From Solidesulfovibrio carbinoliphilus subsp. oakridgensis (lineage in GTDB: Bacteria > Desulfobacterota > Desulfovibrionia > Desulfovibrionales > Desulfovibrionaceae): DNA of 64,000 bases. The stretch's first letter is position 1. Each line of letters starts with the position of its first letter. The position numbers and the translations under genes are program-made. The notes beneath the pieces are model-generated. The model searched no databases and was not told the DNA's origin. It was given only the letters and a program-made list of their open reading frames with translations. The DNA is taken from NCBI RefSeq assembly GCF_000177215.2, contig NZ_CM001368.1, forward strand, positions 3,479,625-3,543,624, written 5' to 3'. Positions 20,630-35,983 of this stretch are shown piece after piece.

Positions 20630-20950
20630 CTAGTAGTTGAGGATGCGATCCGCGGCCCGCATCTGGGCGTAGAGAAATTCCATGTTCGACAGCACGACCG
20701 GGGCTTTGGCTTCCACACCGTGGATGCCGAGGCACTTGCCTCAGGCGGCGAGCTTGCCCTCGCTGAGGCCAAAGAGCTTGGCCTGGGCGGCGATGGGGAA
20801 GGCGTCGCTGTCGCCCTGGCAGAGGTCCACGGCCGGCCCGTTCAGGAAGATGGTCACTTCCTCGCCCTTTTCGAGCAGGAAGTTGCCGAAGCGCACGGCG
20901 TTCCATTTGATTTCCGGGTCCGGGCTCGACAGGACGATCAGTATTTGCAT
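20630..20950 (-). CDS. DsrE-family protein with in-frame TGA, probable selenoprotein
   Basis: Read straight through one TGA, this is a 106-residue DsrE/DsrF-like protein. ATG 20950 has GGAGG upstream. The N-terminal part (ILIVLSSPDPEIKWNAVRFG, EVTIFLNGPAVDL) is a good match to the small sulfur-relay/DsrE family. The TGA (20743-20741, residue 70) falls in LAA-U-GKCLGIHG, exactly where family members have the first Cys of an ACGTC-type CxxC. The same frame then continues in family style (VVLSNMEFLYAQMRAADRILNY) to TAG at 20630. A hairpin with a GGU loop follows the TGA at SECIS distance. A conventional caller would end the protein at the TGA after 69 residues. The alternative is a nonsense mutation or sequencing error, but conservation after the TGA argues against decay. 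Likely role: thiol/selenol redox or sulfur transfer in the cytoplasm. Confidence 0.8.
20708..20743 (-). promoter_or_regulatory. Putative bacterial SECIS element
   Basis: On the mRNA strand the TGA is followed after 12 bases by a hairpin at 20728-20708. It has three G/C pairs, an A/A mismatch, a U-A pair, a 4-bp apical stem CCAC/GUGG and the loop GGU. Loop distance (22-24 bases after TGA) and loop guanines match the SelB-binding SECIS of bacterial formate dehydrogenase mRNAs. A competing 5-bp hairpin GAGGC-AAGT-GCCTC overlaps the TGA itself. Confidence 0.65.
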
Positions 20951-21052
20951 TTTCGATTCCTCCGGCCCATTGCAATAGAAAAATTCGATAGCCAGGGCAA
21001 TACCGAGTGGCGGCCGGAGGGAAGGCGCGGGGACGGGAGGGCGGCGCGCAGC

Positions 21053-21078
21053 GGGAACCCGCGTCGACGCGGGTTCCC
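21053..21078. terminator. 26-base perfect palindrome after the gene ending at 21092
   Basis: Bases 21053-21078 are fully self-complementary (GGGAACCCGCG arm around TCGA). The palindrome starts 13 bases after the minus-strand stop at 21092 and precedes the DsrE gene. It has no T-tract, so it may be a processing or stabilising hairpin rather than an intrinsic terminator. Confidence 0.5.
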
Positions 21079-21091
21079 GGGGCTGTTTCGC

Positions 21092-21521: not shown

Positions 21522-22583
21522 TCAACGTCCGGACGGACCGGCCTTGGCCAGGAGGAACTTGAAGACCGAGGAGACGTAGCGACCGGACACCACGTCCGGC
21601 AGCGGAAAACGCGGCAAGGTCTCCTCGCCGATGGTCCCGGCCAGGGCCAGAAGCATCTGGCGGGACAGGGCGGCCAGGCCCGGCTCCAGGGTCTGCTCCC
21701 ACAGGGCGGCGGCCGCCTCGGCCGGCAGGCCGGAAAGCAGGCAGACGAGCGGGCGGTTGGCGAAGATCCGGCAATTGCCCTCGAAGGACAGCGGACAAAG
21801 CCGCGTCCAGGCCGACAGGCAGTGCGGGCTGGCCTCGCCGTAGAGGGCGTTGAGGCGGGCCATTTCCCGGGAGGCCTCGGCCGCGTCCTCCATGACCGTC
21901 AGGCGCACTTCGCTTGGCAGGCCGATGTTCACGCGGTGGCTGACATGCACGGCCTCGGCCAGGGAGAGGGTCAACGGCCGGCGGCAGCATTGGGCGTGGT
22001 CCCGGCCGCACCGGGGCAGGCCCTTGGCCGCCAGGCGGGCGGTGGCCACGAGTCTGGCGTAGTCGTTTAAAAACGGGGCCAGATCGACCCGCCGGCCGGA
22101 TTCGAGGCTCGGCTCGCGCACGGTCAGCCGGCCGGCCGCCTTGCCGTAGCGGCGGATCGTCCACCACTGGTCGAAATTGGCCGGCTTGGCCCGCAGGGGA
22201 CGCAGCACCTTGGCGGCCAGCCTGTGGCCCAGGCCCCGGCGCAGGAGGTAGGCGTTTAAGACCGTGCCGGTGCGGCCGATGCCGTGGCGGCAGTGGATGA
22301 GGACCTTTTTGCCGAGGTAGACGGCCTCGTCGAGCCAGGCGAGGGCCCCTTCGAGGGCCGGCAGGTCCGGGGCCTTTTCGTCCGGGATCGGCAGGTAGCG
22401 GACCTCGAACCCGGAGGCGGCCTCGATGTCGTGGAGGTCGCAGAATTCGGCGCACAGGTTGAGGATGGCCGTCACCCCCTGTTCCTTCAGGGAATCGAGC
22501 TGCTCGTAGGACATGGGGGCGCCGCCGACGGCGATGTGGCCCGTCACCCAGGTCAGGGGGTAGGCGTGGAAGGTTGCCGGCAT
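21522..22583 (-). CDS. Dual-specificity/tyrosine phosphatase fused to a YkgJ-like cysteine domain
   Basis: A 353-residue cytosolic protein. Residues 1-150 form a cysteine phosphatase of the dual-specificity type: the P-loop is IHCRHGIGRTG (HCx5R, nucleophile Cys98, Arg104), with a candidate general acid Asp68 in PIPDEKAPD. Residues 190-285 carry a cysteine pattern C192, C199, C200, C255, C263, C271, C281, ending in NCRIFANRPLVC. This resembles the YkgJ zinc/iron-chelating domain (CxIYxxRPxxC). The gene starts seven bases after the PEP-utilizer-like gene, so the two are co-transcribed. A phosphatase reversing phosphorylation within this operon is a reasonable guess; the substrate is unknown. 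Confidence 0.8.
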   Translation of the reverse strand: MPATFHAYPLTWVTGHIAVGGAPMSYEQLDSLKEQGVTAILNLCAEFCDLHDIEAASGFEVRYLPIPDEKAPDLPALEGALAWLDEAVYLGKKVLIHCRHGIGRTGTVLNAYLLRRGLGHRLAAKVLRPLRAKPANFDQWWTIRRYGKAAGRLTVREPSLESGRRVDLAPFLNDYARLVATARLAAKGLPRCGRDHAQCCRRPLTLSLAEAVHVSHRVNIGLPSEVRLTVMEDAAEASREMARLNALYGEASPHCLSAWTRLCPLSFEGNCRIFANRPLVCLLSGLPAEAAAALWEQTLEPGLAALSRQMLLALAGTIGEETLPRFPLPDVVSGRYVSSVFKFLLAKAGPSGR

Positions 22584-22589
22584 GGCCGG

Positions 22590-25079
22590 TCACCGGTCCG
22601 TGCGCGCCAGGAATCGGTCCACCCAGGCGTCGGCGTCGGCCTCGCCCGACAGGCGCATGTCGAGCAGGCGGGTGGCGGCCAGCAGGCAGCCGAGCATGGC
22701 CAGCCGCTTCTGGACCAGGTGCTCCGGCACCCGGGCGAGGGAAGCGTCGAGGAGGTCGCCCGAGGTCCTGACGGTGAAGCCGAAGTGGGTGAGGATGCGG
22801 CGCACGCAGGAAAGGCGCAGGGTGCGCTGCTCGTAGCCGGCCCCGCCGCCCTTGAACCGGAAATTGACGAAGTTCTGGCTTTCGGCCGGGCCGCACAGGG
22901 CGTCGACCACGGTGAAGTGGTAGCCGAAGCGGAGCATGACGTGGGCGTAGAGGTCGGAGACCACGGCATAGCTGGCCAGATGCTTGGAGTCGCTGGCGAA
23001 GATGCCGCCGCTGGTCTGGTCGAAGGCCGTGTCGTCGGTGATGGGCGGGCCCTCGGGCCAGGGGGTGTCGTCGGCGGCCAGGCCCGACCACAGGGCCCAC
23101 ATGGGCGCGCTTCGGATCTGGTCCGGGCGCAGTTCCTTGTCCTTGGCCGCGGACTCGAACACCCCGCCGCCGAGGTCCAGGAGGTACATGGTCATGGGCA
23201 GGTGGCTTTTGAGCTTTCTGGCCGAGGCCAGGCCGCGCGCCCCGGGGCCGACCAGGGAGAACATCTCGGTCACGGCCTTTTCATGGGCGAAGCGCACGAT
23301 GTCGTGGAGGGATTTGACCCGGGAAGGCGCGAAGTCCGGGGAGGCCGGGTCGGTCAGGGTCAGGCCGGCGATGAGCGGCACCAGCCGGCCGAGGCGCTCG
23401 GCCACGGGCGAGCCCTCGCTCGGCCGGTTCTGGCGCGGCCGGGCCAGGAGCGAGGCCACCCGGCCGGGGTAGACGGCCCCGGCGTCGGCGTCCACGGTCA
23501 CCACCGCGCCCTCGGCGAGGGCGTGGAAGGCGTCCTCGACGCCCGTGACCACGGGCAGGCCGAGCTCCCGGGCCACGGAGGCGAAATGTCCGGCCCGGCT
23601 GCCGGCGACGGCCACCACGGCGGCCAGCCGGTCGGCCGCCCGGGCCAGGGCCGGCGGCAGGGTCGGGGTCACGAGGACCGTGCCCGGGGGGATGTCCGCC
23701 ACGTCGAGGACGGTGGCGGCAAAGCGCACGGTGCCGGCGGCCGCGCCGCCCGAGGCCCGGCCGCCGCCGACGACCAGGGGCGGGACGTCCGGCCGGGGCG
23801 GGGGAGCCACGGCGGGTGCGCCCTCCACGGCCATGGGCCGGGACTGGAGCACGGTGAGGGCGCCGGCCGGCCCAAGGACCCATTCCACGTCCTGGGGCGC
23901 CTCAAAGGCGTTTTCGAGGGCCAGTCCCAGGGCGGCCAGCTTCCGGGCCGCGGCCTCGGGCAGGACCGGAGCGTCCAGGGTGTGGCGGTCGAGGAGAATA
24001 TGGGGCGGCCGGCGGGACAGGGCCAGGCGCTCGGGCGTGGTCGCCCCCCCGACCAGGTCCGCGCCGAGGCCCGGCACGGCATAGGCGGCCATGGGCGCGT
24101 CCTCGTCGGCGCTGTCGCGGGTGTAGAGCACCCCCGAGGCCACGGCCGGCACCATGGGCAGGAAAAGGACGGCCATGGGCGTTTCCTCGTCCGCATAGCC
24201 GGTCAGGACCCGGTAGGTGATGGCCTTGGCCGCGTACTTGCCGGCAACGACCCGGAGGTAGGCCGTGGCGGCCTCGTCCGGCGGAACGTCGAGGAGGCTC
24301 TCGTACTGGCCGGCGAAGGAGGCCCGGCCGTCCTCGGCCACGGCCGAGCTGCGGGCGGCCAGAAGGAGCGGCTCGCCGTCCGGGCCGACGGCCAGGGCCC
24401 GGGCGGCTTCGGCCAGCGGCCCGGCCACCTCGTCGGGGAGCCTGGCCCCGAGGATGAGCCGCCGGATCTCGGCGGCCGCCTCGGCCAGCTCGTTTGGCCG
24501 GGCCAGATCCACGCGCCGCAGCCACCGGTCGATTTTGGGGCGCAGCTCGCCTGCTTCGAGGAAATAGCGGAAGGCCCCGGTGGTGACCACGAATCCCGGC
24601 GGCACGGCCACCCGGCCAAGCCGGCCGGCCCGGGCCAGATTGGCGGCCTTGCCCCCGGCCCGGGCCGCGTCCCCGGCCACCTCGGGGAGCGGCACGACAA
24701 AGGGCGGGGCCATGTCCCCGGCCGGCACATCGAGCGCCATCTGGACGTAGAAATCCACCTTCTTGGCGTATTCCGGCAGGTCCAGGTGGTGGGCCGGGGA
24801 GAGCCTCGTGAGCCGGGCCACCATCTCCTCCACCGAGATCCGCAGCCGGCGGGCCAGATGGACGACCCGGGCCCAGTCCACGGCCGCCTGGCCGTAGTGG
24901 ATGTCCTCGATGGCCGCGATCAGCTCCAGACAGGCGTCGTCAAAGCGCAAAAGCTCCCGAAAGGCGTTGTACTTCTCGCGAAGGAGCACGCCCGGGGCGA
25001 AAACCTGGTAGGTCCAGCGTCGAAAGAGTTCCTTGGAAAACACGAACAACCCGCTATCAGCCGTTTGGGGGGCCGGCAA
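22590..25079 (-). CDS. PEP/pyruvate-binding-domain protein (PEP-synthase-like)
   Basis: A protein of about 829 residues. After about 130 helical residues comes a PPDK-N type nucleotide/pyruvate-binding region (GGKAANLARAG, VPPGFVVTTGAF, ARSSAVAEDGRASFAGQYES, and later DVEWVLGPAGALTVLQSRPM). A phosphohistidine swivel domain follows, with GSRAGHFASVARELGLPVV and the candidate His498. The PEP-binding TIM barrel of true PEP synthase or PPDK is missing; the C-terminal 240 residues are a different domain (FAPSRVKSLHDIVRFAHE, PMWALWSG). So the classical reaction is unlikely. The frame begins at TTG 25079, inside the receiver gene and close behind GAGGAGG; GTG 25043 is an alternative start. It sits in a kinase/receiver/phosphatase operon, suggesting a regulated phosphotransfer role. 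Confidence 0.8.
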   Translation of the reverse strand: MPAPQTADSGLFVFSKELFRRWTYQVFAPGVLLREKYNAFRELLRFDDACLELIAAIEDIHYGQAAVDWARVVHLARRLRISVEEMVARLTRLSPAHHLDLPEYAKKVDFYVQMALDVPAGDMAPPFVVPLPEVAGDAARAGGKAANLARAGRLGRVAVPPGFVVTTGAFRYFLEAGELRPKIDRWLRRVDLARPNELAEAAAEIRRLILGARLPDEVAGPLAEAARALAVGPDGEPLLLAARSSAVAEDGRASFAGQYESLLDVPPDEAATAYLRVVAGKYAAKAITYRVLTGYADEETPMAVLFLPMVPAVASGVLYTRDSADEDAPMAAYAVPGLGADLVGGATTPERLALSRRPPHILLDRHTLDAPVLPEAAARKLAALGLALENAFEAPQDVEWVLGPAGALTVLQSRPMAVEGAPAVAPPPRPDVPPLVVGGGRASGGAAAGTVRFAATVLDVADIPPGTVLVTPTLPPALARAADRLAAVVAVAGSRAGHFASVARELGLPVVTGVEDAFHALAEGAVVTVDADAGAVYPGRVASLLARPRQNRPSEGSPVAERLGRLVPLIAGLTLTDPASPDFAPSRVKSLHDIVRFAHEKAVTEMFSLVGPGARGLASARKLKSHLPMTMYLLDLGGGVFESAAKDKELRPDQIRSAPMWALWSGLAADDTPWPEGPPITDDTAFDQTSGGIFASDSKHLASYAVVSDLYAHVMLRFGYHFTVVDALCGPAESQNFVNFRFKGGGAGYEQRTLRLSCVRRILTHFGFTVRTSGDLLDASLARVPEHLVQKRLAMLGCLLAATRLLDMRLSGEADADAWVDRFLARTDR

Positions 25080-32540: not shown

Positions 32541-33047
32541 CTAGCCTTGGCGCAGGAGCAGGCGTTTGCCGTAGGTGTCGCGTTCGTCCGGGGTGGGGCG
32601 GTCTGGGCGCTGGAAGGTCAGGGCGTGGGCGGTGCAGCCGGTGACGCAGGCCGGGTCGAGGCCGGCGTCGATGCGGTCGCGGCAGTAGTCGCACTTGACC
32701 ACCTTGCCCGTGGCCTCGTTCCACTGGGGGATGCGCCAGGGGCAGGCCTGGATGCAGGCCTTGCAGCCCACGCACAGCTCTTCCTTCACATAGACCACGC
32801 CGTCTTCCTCGCGCCGGGCCATGGCTCCGGTCGGGCAGGCCGGCACACACCAGGGCCGCTCGCAGTGGTAGCAGGACATGTAGAGATTGAGCAGGCGCGG
32901 CTTGCCCTTGACCATGTCCGGGCCGACGGTCACGAGCTTGCCGGGCTTGGCCGAGGGCGGGACGGCGTTTTTGACCTGGCAGTGCACCTCGCAGGCGTGG
33001 CAGGAAATGCAGCGCTTCTTGTCGAGCTGGATCATGTACTTGCTCAT
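32541..33047 (-). CDS. Four-cluster ferredoxin-type electron transfer subunit (DmsB/NrfC/PsrB-like)
   Basis: A 168-residue protein with four cysteine motifs for [4Fe-4S] clusters: CISCHACEVHC, CYHCERPWCVPAC, CVGCKACIQAC and CDYCRDRIDAG...CVTGC. This is the normal architecture of the electron-transfer subunit of DMSO-reductase-family molybdoenzymes. There is no signal peptide. The ATG overlaps the stop of the upstream ferredoxin gene by four bases (ATGA) and has GAAGGAG upstream. The molybdopterin catalytic subunit is encoded divergently at 33896. Together they would form a cytosolic oxidoreductase, possibly reducing polysulfide, thiosulfate or a related sulfur compound. Confidence 0.88.
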   Translation of the reverse strand: MSKYMIQLDKKRCISCHACEVHCQVKNAVPPSAKPGKLVTVGPDMVKGKPRLLNLYMSCYHCERPWCVPACPTGAMARREEDGVVYVKEELCVGCKACIQACPWRIPQWNEATGKVVKCDYCRDRIDAGLDPACVTGCTAHALTFQRPDRPTPDERDTYGKRLLLRQG

Positions 33048-33625
33048 GCGGGCTCCTTCATGGGGCGGTCGGCGGGCGTCGGGGCCGTGGCCAGGGCCTG
33101 GCGGCGAAGGCGCGTCAACAGGTCCAGGCGGAAGTCCTGGCGGCGGGTGCCGATGAAATAGGCGTGGCGGGAAAAGCGCAGCGAATCCACGGGGCAGGCT
33201 TTGACGCACTGGCCGCACAGGCTGCACAGCGAATAGTCGTAGACGAAAGCGCCCGGCGTCTTGCACCCCTTTTGCGGGGCCGGGCCCATGGTCTCGACCT
33301 CGGGGATGAGCTCCCCGGCCAGTTCCGCGGCCGACCGGCCTTCCGGTCCGGGCTTGCCGCCGCCGATGGGGCAGGCCACGGCCAGGCACTGGGACGGACA
33401 GGCCCGCACGCAGGCCCCGCAGGCGATGCAGCGGGGCACGGCCGGTTCGCCGTCCTTGCCGACAAGCTCCACGTGGCCCCGGTAGGTGTCGAGGTTGCCC
33501 ACTTCCCGTTTCGGATAGAGCACCGTGACCGACGGCCGGGCCATGGCCCGGCCGGTGATGCCGAGCCCGACGAGCAGGCTTTTGAGGCCGACGGCCGCCT
33601 CGCTGAACAGTCTGGTAAGGGTCAC
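33044..33625 (-). CDS. NuoI-like two-cluster ferredoxin protein
   Basis: A 193-residue protein with two [4Fe-4S] motifs: CIACGACVRACP with its remote partner in CLAVACPIGGG, and CSLCGQCVKACP. An amphipathic N-terminus and an insertion of about 45 residues separate the motifs. This resembles the NADH dehydrogenase subunit I type (NuoI/EchF-like) ferredoxins that link redox modules. It heads a two-gene minus-strand operon with the four-cluster ferredoxin, divergent from the molybdoenzyme. It could connect that enzyme to a further electron donor; no membrane anchor subunit is present. Confidence 0.85.
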   Translation of the reverse strand: MTLTRLFSEAAVGLKSLLVGLGITGRAMARPSVTVLYPKREVGNLDTYRGHVELVGKDGEPAVPRCIACGACVRACPSQCLAVACPIGGGKPGPEGRSAAELAGELIPEVETMGPAPQKGCKTPGAFVYDYSLCSLCGQCVKACPVDSLRFSRHAYFIGTRRQDFRLDLLTRLRRQALATAPTPADRPMKEPA

Positions 33626-33687
33626 GCCGTGGCCTCCCGCGGCCGTCGGCCGCTTGCGTCCGGGACGTTTGGATCTCTTTGACCCAG

Positions 33688-33716
33688 TCTAAACGTGTTT
33701 CCGGCCCCCTTGTCAA
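33688..33716 (-). promoter_or_regulatory. Candidate promoter of the ferredoxin pair
   Basis: Minus-strand TTGACA (33716-33711), 17 bases, TTTAGA (33693-33688), giving a leader of about 55 bases. For the divergent molybdoenzyme gene I find only a TTATAT at 33773 without a -35 partner in the remaining 180 bases. Confidence 0.45.
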
Positions 33717-33895
33717 CGGCCCGGGGCACAAGTTCCCACCTTCACAAACATCCGTCCCGGACGGCGTGATTCTCTTATATCCATGCGCCTCGTTTCACAA
33801 CGCTTTTCCCTTGCCACGGGTCACGGATTCCTGCTACTTCGTGTGCGGTGGAAAAAAGCGATACGAACGCAACGCCGCGTTGATCGGAGTGAGCC

Positions 33896-35983
33896 ATGGA
33901 ACGAAAAAGCGTCTACAGCGTCTGCGGCATGTGCACCGTGCGGTGCCCCATGATGGCCACGGTCGAGGGAAACCGGGTGGTGCATCTGCAAGGCAACCCC
34001 CATGCCGCCGGCATCAAGGGGGCGCTTTGCGCCCGGGGCGCGGCCGGCGGGGCCCTGGTGGCCGACGACGAACGGCCCCAGTTCCCCATGATCCGGGCCG
34101 GCGAGCGGGGCGAGGGCAAGTGGCGGCGGGCTTCCTGGGACGAGGCGCTCGGCCACGTGGCGGGGGAGTTGTCCCGCATCCGCGAGGCCCATGGCGCGCG
34201 TTCGATCCTTCTTTCCGACCGGGGCGGGCCCTTTCGCGACATGCACCGGGCCTTTCTAAAGGCCCTTGGCAGCCCCAACTACTGCAACCACGACAGCGCC
34301 TGCGCCCGAAACGTCCAGCACGCGGCCCTCTCGCTTTTCGGCTTCGGCCGCAAGGACGTGGCCTACGATTACAAGAACAGCAAGCATGTGGTGCTCCAGA
34401 CGCGAAACATCTTCGAGGCCATAAACGTCAAGGAAGTCAACGACCTCCTCGACGCGAAAGAGGCCGGGGCCAAGATCACCTGCATCGACGTTCGGACCAC
34501 GGTGACCGCGGCCAAGGCCGACAACTTTTTTCTCGTCCGGCCGGGCACGGACTATGCGTTCAACCTGGCCGTCATCCACGAGCTGCTGGCCAGGGACCTC
34601 TACGACAAGGCCTTCGCCACGGCCTGGATCAAGGACCTCGACGCCCTCAAAGCCTTTGTGGCGCCCTACGGCCCGGACTTCGCCGCCCGGGAGACCGGCG
34701 TGCCGGCCGCCCGCATTGCCTCCCTGGCCGCCCAGCTGGCGGCCGCGGCTCCGGCCGTCATCTGGCACCCGGGCTGGATGACCGCCCGCTACGGCGACTC
34801 GTTTGCGGTCTGCCGCACGGCCTACATCATAAACGCGCTCCTTGGCTCCATCGGGGCCAAGGGCGGCCTGCCCCTGGTCAACAAACCCGGCCATGTCGGC
34901 AAAAAGGGCCTCAAAAACCTGGTCGACCTCTTTCCCAAGCCCGCCGACAAGCGCGTGGACGGGGTGGGCTGGATGGAGGGGCGCACCCACTTCGAGGCCG
35001 GCCCGGGCCTGGTCAACCTGGCCTTCGAGGCCATCGAATCCGGGGAGCCGTACCCGGTCAAGGCCTACATCGCCCACCGCCACGATCCGCTCATGGCCTT
35101 CCCGGACTCGGCCGACGTCAGGCGGCGGTGGAAGAACCTGGAGCTTCTGGTCGCCGTCACCTTCTCCTGGTCGGACACGGCCTGGAACGCCGACGTGGTC
35201 CTGCCCATGTCGCCGTACCTGGAACGCGAGTCCATGATCGCGGGCAAAAGCGGGGTGTCGCCGTCCTTTTTCGTGCGCAAGCGGGCGCTTGATCCCCGGT
35301 TCGACACCCGGGCCGACTGGGAGATCTACCGCGATCTGGCCCGGCACATGGGCATAAAGGAACTCGATTTCGATTCCATCGAGGACATCTGGAAGTTCCA
35401 GCTGGCCGACACGGGCGTCGCCCTCGGGGACTTCGAGGCCACCGGCATGGTGAAACTCGGTGGACCGCTCTACCGGCCGGTCGATGACAAGACCTTCAAG
35501 ACCGGGACCGGCAAAATCGAGATCGTAAGTCCCAAGCTGGAAGCCGACGGCGTGCCCTCCCTGCCGCCGTACGCCGCCCCGGCCGTGCCGCCCGAGGGCA
35601 GCTACCGGGTCAGTTTCGGCCGCATAGGGCTCCACACCCAGGGCCACACGGTGAATAATCCCCTGCTTTTTGCCCAGATGCCGGAAAACGAGCTGTGGAT
35701 CCACACCGGCGAGGCGGCAAAGCTCGGCATCGCCGACGGAGCGCTGGTCGAGGTGCGAAACGGGTCCCACGCCGGCACCCTCAAGGCCAAGGTCACGGAC
35801 GGCATCCACCCGGAGACGGTCTTCATGGTCCACGGCTTCGGCCACACCCTGCCCGTGGAAAGCCGGGCCCGGGGCCGGGGCGTGGCCGACAACGAACTCA
35901 TGCCCCGGGGCATGGCCACCTGGGACAAGGGCGGCGGCGGCGTGTGCATGCAGGAGCACTTCGTGACCGTGCGTCCGGCCTGA
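33896..35983 (+). CDS. Molybdopterin oxidoreductase catalytic subunit (PhsA/PsrA-like)
   Basis: A 695-residue member of the DMSO-reductase family. The [4Fe-4S] motif is at the extreme N-terminus (C10, C13, C17, C45; VCGMCTVRCPMM). Mo/W-bis-pterin binding is suggested by SPNYCNHDSACARN (C130, C136) and by the late blocks VVLPMSPYLE and HTQGHTVNNPLL. Thiosulfate and polysulfide reductases are the closest group by motif. Unlike those enzymes it has no twin-arginine signal, since the cluster begins at residue 10, so it should be cytoplasmic. Electron partners are the divergent ferredoxins; an FmdE/MoeA-like protein is encoded downstream. The substrate is unproven. Confidence 0.88.
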   Translation: MERKSVYSVCGMCTVRCPMMATVEGNRVVHLQGNPHAAGIKGALCARGAAGGALVADDERPQFPMIRAGERGEGKWRRASWDEALGHVAGELSRIREAHGARSILLSDRGGPFRDMHRAFLKALGSPNYCNHDSACARNVQHAALSLFGFGRKDVAYDYKNSKHVVLQTRNIFEAINVKEVNDLLDAKEAGAKITCIDVRTTVTAAKADNFFLVRPGTDYAFNLAVIHELLARDLYDKAFATAWIKDLDALKAFVAPYGPDFAARETGVPAARIASLAAQLAAAAPAVIWHPGWMTARYGDSFAVCRTAYIINALLGSIGAKGGLPLVNKPGHVGKKGLKNLVDLFPKPADKRVDGVGWMEGRTHFEAGPGLVNLAFEAIESGEPYPVKAYIAHRHDPLMAFPDSADVRRRWKNLELLVAVTFSWSDTAWNADVVLPMSPYLERESMIAGKSGVSPSFFVRKRALDPRFDTRADWEIYRDLARHMGIKELDFDSIEDIWKFQLADTGVALGDFEATGMVKLGGPLYRPVDDKTFKTGTGKIEIVSPKLEADGVPSLPPYAAPAVPPEGSYRVSFGRIGLHTQGHTVNNPLLFAQMPENELWIHTGEAAKLGIADGALVEVRNGSHAGTLKAKVTDGIHPETVFMVHGFGHTLPVESRARGRGVADNELMPRGMATWDKGGGGVCMQEHFVTVRPA

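Follow-up and report, generated by a model that had tools for sequence, protein, structure and literature searches.

Does the UGA codon that interrupts a short DsrE-like gene of Solidesulfovibrio carbinoliphilus subsp. oakridgensis end a 69-residue protein, or is it read as selenocysteine (Sec) within a longer one, and what might the longer protein do? We analyzed the gene within a stretch of 64,000 nucleotides (here, the window) and in related genomes. With a probability of about 0.93, the window gene encodes a DsrE-family selenoprotein in which the UGA at codon 70 is read as Sec. Computation established the frame, the Sec/Cys position, covariation of the hairpin, and the presence of the decoding genes; the protein probably carries or reduces reactive sulfur.

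An in-frame UGA in a DsrE-family gene

The first-pass annotation had described a DsrE-like frame running from the ATG at 20950 through an in-frame TGA to a stop at 20630, with the TGA in place of the first Cys of a CxxC motif (U-G-K-C) and family-like sequence beyond it. Translation agrees (69 codons, the TGA, GKCLGIHGV..., and the terminal TAG; Table 1), and so does Pfam: the DsrE model (PF02635) matches residues 1 to 105 of the read-through protein with 34.3 bits (cut-off, 22.7), and the 69-residue truncation, at 15.5 bits, stays under the cut-off. The product is a single-domain protein (DsrE alone by Pfam) that carries the UxxC motif as U-G-K-C, and the NCBIfam models gave no match to it. 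The annotation had also expected a standard caller to report a 69-residue truncation, and such an open reading frame (ORF) is indeed listed; the gene model is thus corrected from this fragment to a read-through protein of 106 residues.

Table 1. Features of the selenoprotein locus in the window
Feature	Coordinates	Strand	Details and basis
Predicted DsrE-like selenoprotein CDS	20630..20950	(-)	106 residues, stop TAG; translation and PF02635 match over the full length on read-through
In-frame UGA, putative Sec, residue 70, position 1 of U-G-K-C	20741..20743	(-)	Sec or Cys in 125/125 members
bSECIS-like hairpin within the CDS	20708..20728	(-)	One A-A mismatch, GGU loop at 20717-20719; fold and covariation
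Shine-Dalgarno-like GGAGG	20959..20963	(-)	8 bases 5' of the ATG; from sequence reading
DSP-type phosphatase, upstream neighbor (context only)	21522..22583	(-)	Pfam
PEP-synthase/PPDK-like protein, upstream neighbor (context)	22590..25079	(-)	Pfam PF01326 and PF00391

Searching named records gave 12 relatives (64 to 84% identity), all of which have TGA at codon 70 (in one of them, L028, the frame breaks later, after the UGA). Within the genus, 10 of 14 genomes contain a DsrE match, and 12 of the 13 matches have one TGA; the thirteenth is distant (33% identity) and has none. Matches occur in 60 of 247 genomes of the order; at the phylum level, a profile search that counted Sec and Cys forms alike found the family in 82 of the 395 genomes sampled. 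The pN/pS ratios for four genus relatives were 0.20 to 0.27 before the TGA and 0.22 to 0.29 after it; the ratio went from 0.21 before the TGA to 0.58 after it for one more distant relative and from 0.44 to 0.47 for another, indicating weaker selection past the UGA. The frame 3' of the UGA is under purifying selection, and this, together with the extent of the Pfam match, bears out the claim that family-like sequence continues past the TGA.

Frames are broken or the N-terminus is degraded in the copies at loci L028, L087, L088, L089, L137, and L148, and the gene therefore decays in some lineages. Separately, a partial C-terminal DsrE copy with GGG at the motif site lies about 200 bases downstream in L042 (1187-1294) and L090 (3135-3242; same place in genome G081).

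The downstream hairpin and the decoding genes

Bacterial Sec insertion uses SelB with Sec-tRNA-Sec and an mRNA hairpin downstream of the UGA. As annotated from the sequence, a hairpin with a GGU loop was located 12 bases past the TGA, and folding gives it as GGCAUCCAC-GGU-GUGGAAGCC. It fits the description of the bacterial SECIS as a hairpin shortly past the UGA whose small apical loop contains a G (PMC1088965). Under a strict rule (a TGA followed by a GGN three-base loop on at least five Watson-Crick pairs, with threshold and distance set on the candidate itself), the candidate alone passed among the window's 1077 TGA triplets (both strands), and none reached six pairs; 3 of 1835 triplets passed in 23 other stretches of the same genome. 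By a looser rule (loop of 3 to 8 bases, G-U allowed), 218 of the 1077 window triplets reached five pairs. Since loose rules find many such structures in this GC-rich window, the hairpin was rejected as sole evidence. A dinucleotide-shuffle control of the 38-base stretch gave a z of -4.81; the synonymous-codon control gave -0.62 for the window gene (not significant) and a mean of -1.2 for 70 sequences, 2 of which are Cys forms. A weak synonymous-codon z would be expected where most codons are fixed by the protein. With a value of only -0.62, the hairpin of the single gene is weak evidence, and covariation across relatives carries the case.

Covariation was assessed in 62 distinct sequences from order-level and named loci (L028 and Cys forms excluded). 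Counted from the UGA, the sixth and seventh codons pair in register with the tenth and ninth, respectively, and codon 8, which forms the loop, is GGN (Gly) in all but one sequence. For the two outer codons, 177 of 186 cells pair, compared with 146.5 in shuffles (0 of 20,000 as high), and 47 of the 62 sequences have a perfect six-pair stem. The outer codons change together (AUC/GAU, CUC/GAG, GUC/GAC, ACC/GGU, GCC/GGC, and CUU/AAG), and the residue pairs I-D (28), L-E (15), L-K (2), T-G (1), and A-G (1) therefore follow the RNA pairing; the pairs V-D (6), I-E (4, including the window), V-E (2), and three others fit it in part or not at all. In 42 of these sequences, thinned by hand, 95.9% of the cells of a seven-pair stem pair, and there are 24 double-sided changes, compared with 8.2 for shuffled data (none of 500 as high) and at most 9 in slid versions. 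Since the rows share ancestry, the shuffle results are not to be taken as probabilities. The SECIS check that the first-pass annotation had proposed thus came out in its favor, with folding and covariation in place of a SECIS predictor: the hairpin is conserved with compensatory changes.

Of 68 Sec forms, 60 close a GGN loop with at least five Watson-Crick pairs and the other 8 fall short; this hairpin form was found in neither of the two Cys forms examined. A group of Sec forms with the motif UGVC has another hairpin form, mostly with a six-base loop, and 11 of 24 members scored fall under five pairs by the looser rule. In the window's genome, selD has a GGN-type loop past its UGA on an eight-pair stem, and the hairpins of two formate dehydrogenase (fdhA) genes, also with GGN loops, have four Watson-Crick pairs (nine and seven pairs with G-U).

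The annotation had further called for a search for selA, selB, selC, and selD, and all four components are present in the window's genome (G000; 100% complete): tRNA-Sec (82.7 bits), selB (358 bits), selA (613 bits), and selD (331 bits), the last itself with one UGA. Both fdhA genes are over the cut-off, with one UGA each. Across the genomes tested, selB is over the cut-off in 63 of 67. Two selB-less genomes (G006 and G120) have a distant DsrE match without UGA as their sole match. The exceptions are G012 (96% complete, 220 contigs) and G236 (95% complete, 3 contigs), which hold the UGA form without a selB match, either through an assembly gap or through real loss. In the proposed mechanism, the mRNA hairpin 12 bases downstream would recruit SelB with Sec-tRNA-Sec, and the UGA at codon 70 would be read as Sec.

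These two exceptions would suit a UGA decoded as another residue (e.g., Trp) without Sec machinery. That reading is nonetheless very improbable, given that homologs have Cys and never Trp at this position, that the hairpin shows covariation, its GGN-loop form being missing in the two Cys forms examined, and that the window's genome has selA, selB, selD, and tRNA-Sec. It is barely conceivable that the gene is a pseudogene, that its codon was misread in sequencing, or that the 69-residue protein is genuine: a standard caller does list the truncated ORF, and decaying copies occur in relatives (L028 and L087-L089). But the UGA recurs at the same codon in many genomes, which excludes a sequencing error such as the TGC or TGT misreading considered by the annotation; selection is purifying past the UGA; and the truncated form scores under the Pfam cut-off. 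The relatives in effect refute this explanation.

Sec and Cys forms of the family and their known relatives

The fetched loci yielded 143 distinct proteins, of which 18 partial ones (<95 residues) were set aside and 125 were read. At the key position, 109 of these full-length members have Sec and 16 have Cys, with no other residue; the counts are not frequencies, because the loci of 20 of the 82 matching phylum genomes are absent and stop-less forms were fetched deliberately. The column of the TGA hence matches Cys in homologs, as the annotation had anticipated. Of the 109 Sec forms, 89 have Cys at motif position 4 and 20 have another residue there (L, 10; S, 7; A, 2; R, 1); CxxC is kept in 15 of the 16 Cys forms. 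Judged from these sequences, the second Cys, absent from 20 of 109 Sec forms, is dispensable in nature. A tree of 112 thinned rows (105 columns, the motif's fourth column masked) requires six changes between Sec and Cys and six between Cys and another residue at motif position 4, with 43 of 109 inner branches open and some rows long-branched. Two large Sec groups appear on it, one with UGKC, UGKL, and UQKS (window included) and the other with UGVC.

Cys and Sec copies stand in tandem at L141, L142, and L152 (the Cys copy of L152 is truncated), and two adjacent Sec copies occur at L153. Five haloarchaeal plasmid records match with 31 to 37% identity, and the one that was read is a Cys form. Two IMG/VR (putative viral) contigs, L216 and L217, encode distant Cys-form DsrE proteins with CGTC.

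The window protein belongs to a selenoprotein type already predicted in 2005-2006. A DsrE-like type with UxxC was reported in 2005 from two sequences of the Sargasso Sea set (PMC1088965), and a 2006 study tabulated a DsrE-like selenoprotein of Desulfovibrio vulgaris, with one Cys-to-Sec event (PMC1794560); the latter supplies the deltaproteobacterial precedent that the annotation had mentioned. The GOS set contained DsrE 1 and DsrE 2, both UxxC (PMC2398784), and the motif is again given as UxxC in reviews of 2022 (PMC9312934) and 2026, the latter describing the functions of DsrE-like and other such selenoproteins as largely uncharacterized (PMC13188914). Like the window protein, the 2005/2006 type (listed representative, WP_014524487.1) belongs to PF02635 and has Sec first in UxxC; the D. 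vulgaris protein, a possible ortholog, comes from another genus and differs in sequence. D. vulgaris is now placed in Nitratidesulfovibrio, in the same family as Solidesulfovibrio, and two Nitratidesulfovibrio relatives are 65 to 67% identical to the window protein, with UGA at the same codon. In the main texts of the mostly open-access papers covered by the search, we found no mention of DsrE-like selenoproteins lacking the second Cys. Two points thus go beyond the descriptions consulted: the second Cys is absent from 20 of the 109 Sec forms, with the first position always Sec or Cys, and a few lineages have desulfurase-like, sulfide:quinone reductase (SQR)-like, or thioredoxin-reductase neighbors or a tandem Cys copy.

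The only significant solved-structure match of the family profile is Escherichia coli YchN (PDB 1jx7; E value, 7.5e-5; whole length). The first Cys of its CKTC motif aligns with the Sec; YchN has Cys there, not Sec. To our knowledge, the function of YchN is unsettled. DsrE and TusD belong to the same Pfam family as the window protein. In Allochromatium vinosum, Cys78 of DsrE binds sulfur and hands it on to DsrC, and an essential Cys is the sulfur carrier of the DsrEFH/TusBCD relay (PMC3397948). The window differs from this relay in that dsrF/dsrH (tusC/tusB)-like genes are not among its eight tested neighbors (Pfam and NCBIfam). YedF (TIGR03527) resembles the window protein in its C-terminal DsrE-like domain with a CGxC motif and in its selenium link through SelD (PMC5322559); it differs by an N-terminal SirA/TusA-like domain, which the window protein lacks.

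Neighboring genes and possible function

The eight neighboring ORFs in the window comprise PEP-synthase-like, phosphatase, MltA, regulator, and kinase genes and one without a match, and no sulfur genes were found among them with Pfam and NCBIfam. The DSP-type phosphatase lies near the DsrE selenoprotein gene in eight genus loci, window included (the genus neighbor list, mostly shadow ORFs overlapping the gene, was used for genus neighbors only). At L172, a 48%-identical phosphatase homolog overlaps the selenoprotein gene by 4 bases and is adjoined by a 44%-identical PEP-synthase/PPDK-like homolog. In the phylum sample of 395, the phosphatase occurs in 42 genomes and DsrE in 82, and they are side by side in 2 of the 24 sampled genomes holding both (counted by eye); a functional link to the PEP synthase and phosphatase was dropped because adjacency is limited to these 2 of 24.

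No neighbor common to most DsrE loci was found, and a conserved operon was therefore rejected. Sulfur genes adjoin the gene at a few loci. A cysteine-desulfurase-like gene lies directly upstream at L075 (Sec) and L151 (Cys form); both are strong matches to desulfurase models, and for one NCBIfam model (cut-off, 304), L151 scores above the threshold (318.8) and L075 slightly below (301.8). A short distance downstream of DsrE, SQR-like genes occur at L142, L079, L175, and L154 (the last with a distant Cys form of DsrE); L079 alone passes the model cut-off of 525, at 614, and the others score 93 to 208. The L079 SQR is not itself a Sec form, because it ends in TAG and has no UGA inside. Among 80 hand-picked genomes with a DsrE match, 15 match SQR_III at 1e-20 (9 over the cut-off), and 4 (G046, G482, G491, and G564) carry it no more than about 1.5 kb from a DsrE gene; the window's genome gave no match to the model. 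BLAST clustering placed thioredoxin-reductase-like genes near L075, L122, L169, and L090 and, farther off, L018; in the model searches (Pfam for L075 and L090, NCBIfam for L075), thioredoxin reductase is over the cut-off in L075, and L090 has a thioredoxin-reductase-like ORF upstream. The haloarchaeal plasmid Cys form has desulfurase-like and CoA-disulfide-reductase-like genes nearby, neither over the cut-off.

We suggest, at about even odds, that Sec loads sulfane sulfur much as the active-site Cys of DsrE and TusD does, forming a mixed Se-S persulfide, and that the sulfur would then be passed on or reduced. The second Cys, where present, would aid its release without being essential. A more specific and tentative version is that in sulfate reducers and their kin, Sec may, as a one-residue carrier, take sulfane sulfur from cysteine desulfurase or SQR and pass it on, with the second Cys optional and lost several times, and with some Sec copies working with a tandem Cys copy in certain lineages. 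If true, this would constitute a persulfide relay with Sec as the carrier.

The strongest competitor is a thioredoxin-like thiol:disulfide oxidoreductase requiring the Sec-Cys pair, in line with the published UxxC label, a reading that is possible but less than an even bet. Most Sec forms (89 of 109) keep UxxC, nearly all Cys forms keep CxxC, and the thioredoxin-reductase-like genes listed above suit an oxidoreductase equally well. Against the need for a pair, the second Cys is replaced in 20 of 109 Sec forms, with six changes on the tree and the first position always Sec or Cys, and the DsrE precedent acts through one Cys (PMC3397948). The desulfurase-like and SQR-like neighbors likewise speak for a carrier. 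Weighing against a carrier, three of the four SQR-like neighbors score under the cut-off, the window gene itself does not adjoin sulfur genes, its genome gave no SQR_III match, and most loci have no neighbor in common. A one-residue sulfur carrier is somewhat more likely than an obligate Sec-Cys oxidoreductase, since losses have repeatedly affected the second Cys but never the first position. The natural single-Sec forms and the Sec/Cys tandem pairs beside sulfur genes make the carrier-or-reductase question directly testable.

It is improbable that the protein handles selenium rather than sulfur, e.g., as a YedF-like carrier feeding SelD. The CGxC-bearing DsrE domain of YedF and its tie to SelD are in keeping with such a role (PMC5322559), as is the presence at L101, some 2 kb downstream of the DsrE-Sec gene, of a YedF-like gene (CPGP and CGTC; 391-570 and the upstream part of the frame). 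However, this neighbor occurs at one locus only, and 4 of the 14 genus genomes (G004, G009, G010 [69% complete], and G011) have selB but no DsrE match; Sec decoding is therefore independent of the DsrE protein.

Other neighbors were noted apart from these questions. ArsR-type regulators occur at 20 loci (single-linkage BLAST), 16 of them on the gene's strand; they were left unused, as distances vary and some loci are near-identical or overlapping, and the identity of the cluster was checked by Pfam in one. By eye, neighbors of the DsrE-Sec gene read like ilvN at L019, L022, and L028 (also ilvC at L019 and L028) and like trpC and trpF at L170 and L173. Elsewhere in the window, a 695-residue molybdopterin-oxidoreductase-like protein (33896-35983, plus strand) has no in-frame UGA past its start, and a ferredoxin-like iron-sulfur sequence was seen by eye at 32541-33731 on the opposite strand. 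Between a 126-residue gene and the selenoprotein gene lies a strong palindrome (GGGAACCCGCG/CGCGGGTTCCC; 21052-21079) that is not in the terminator-scan list.
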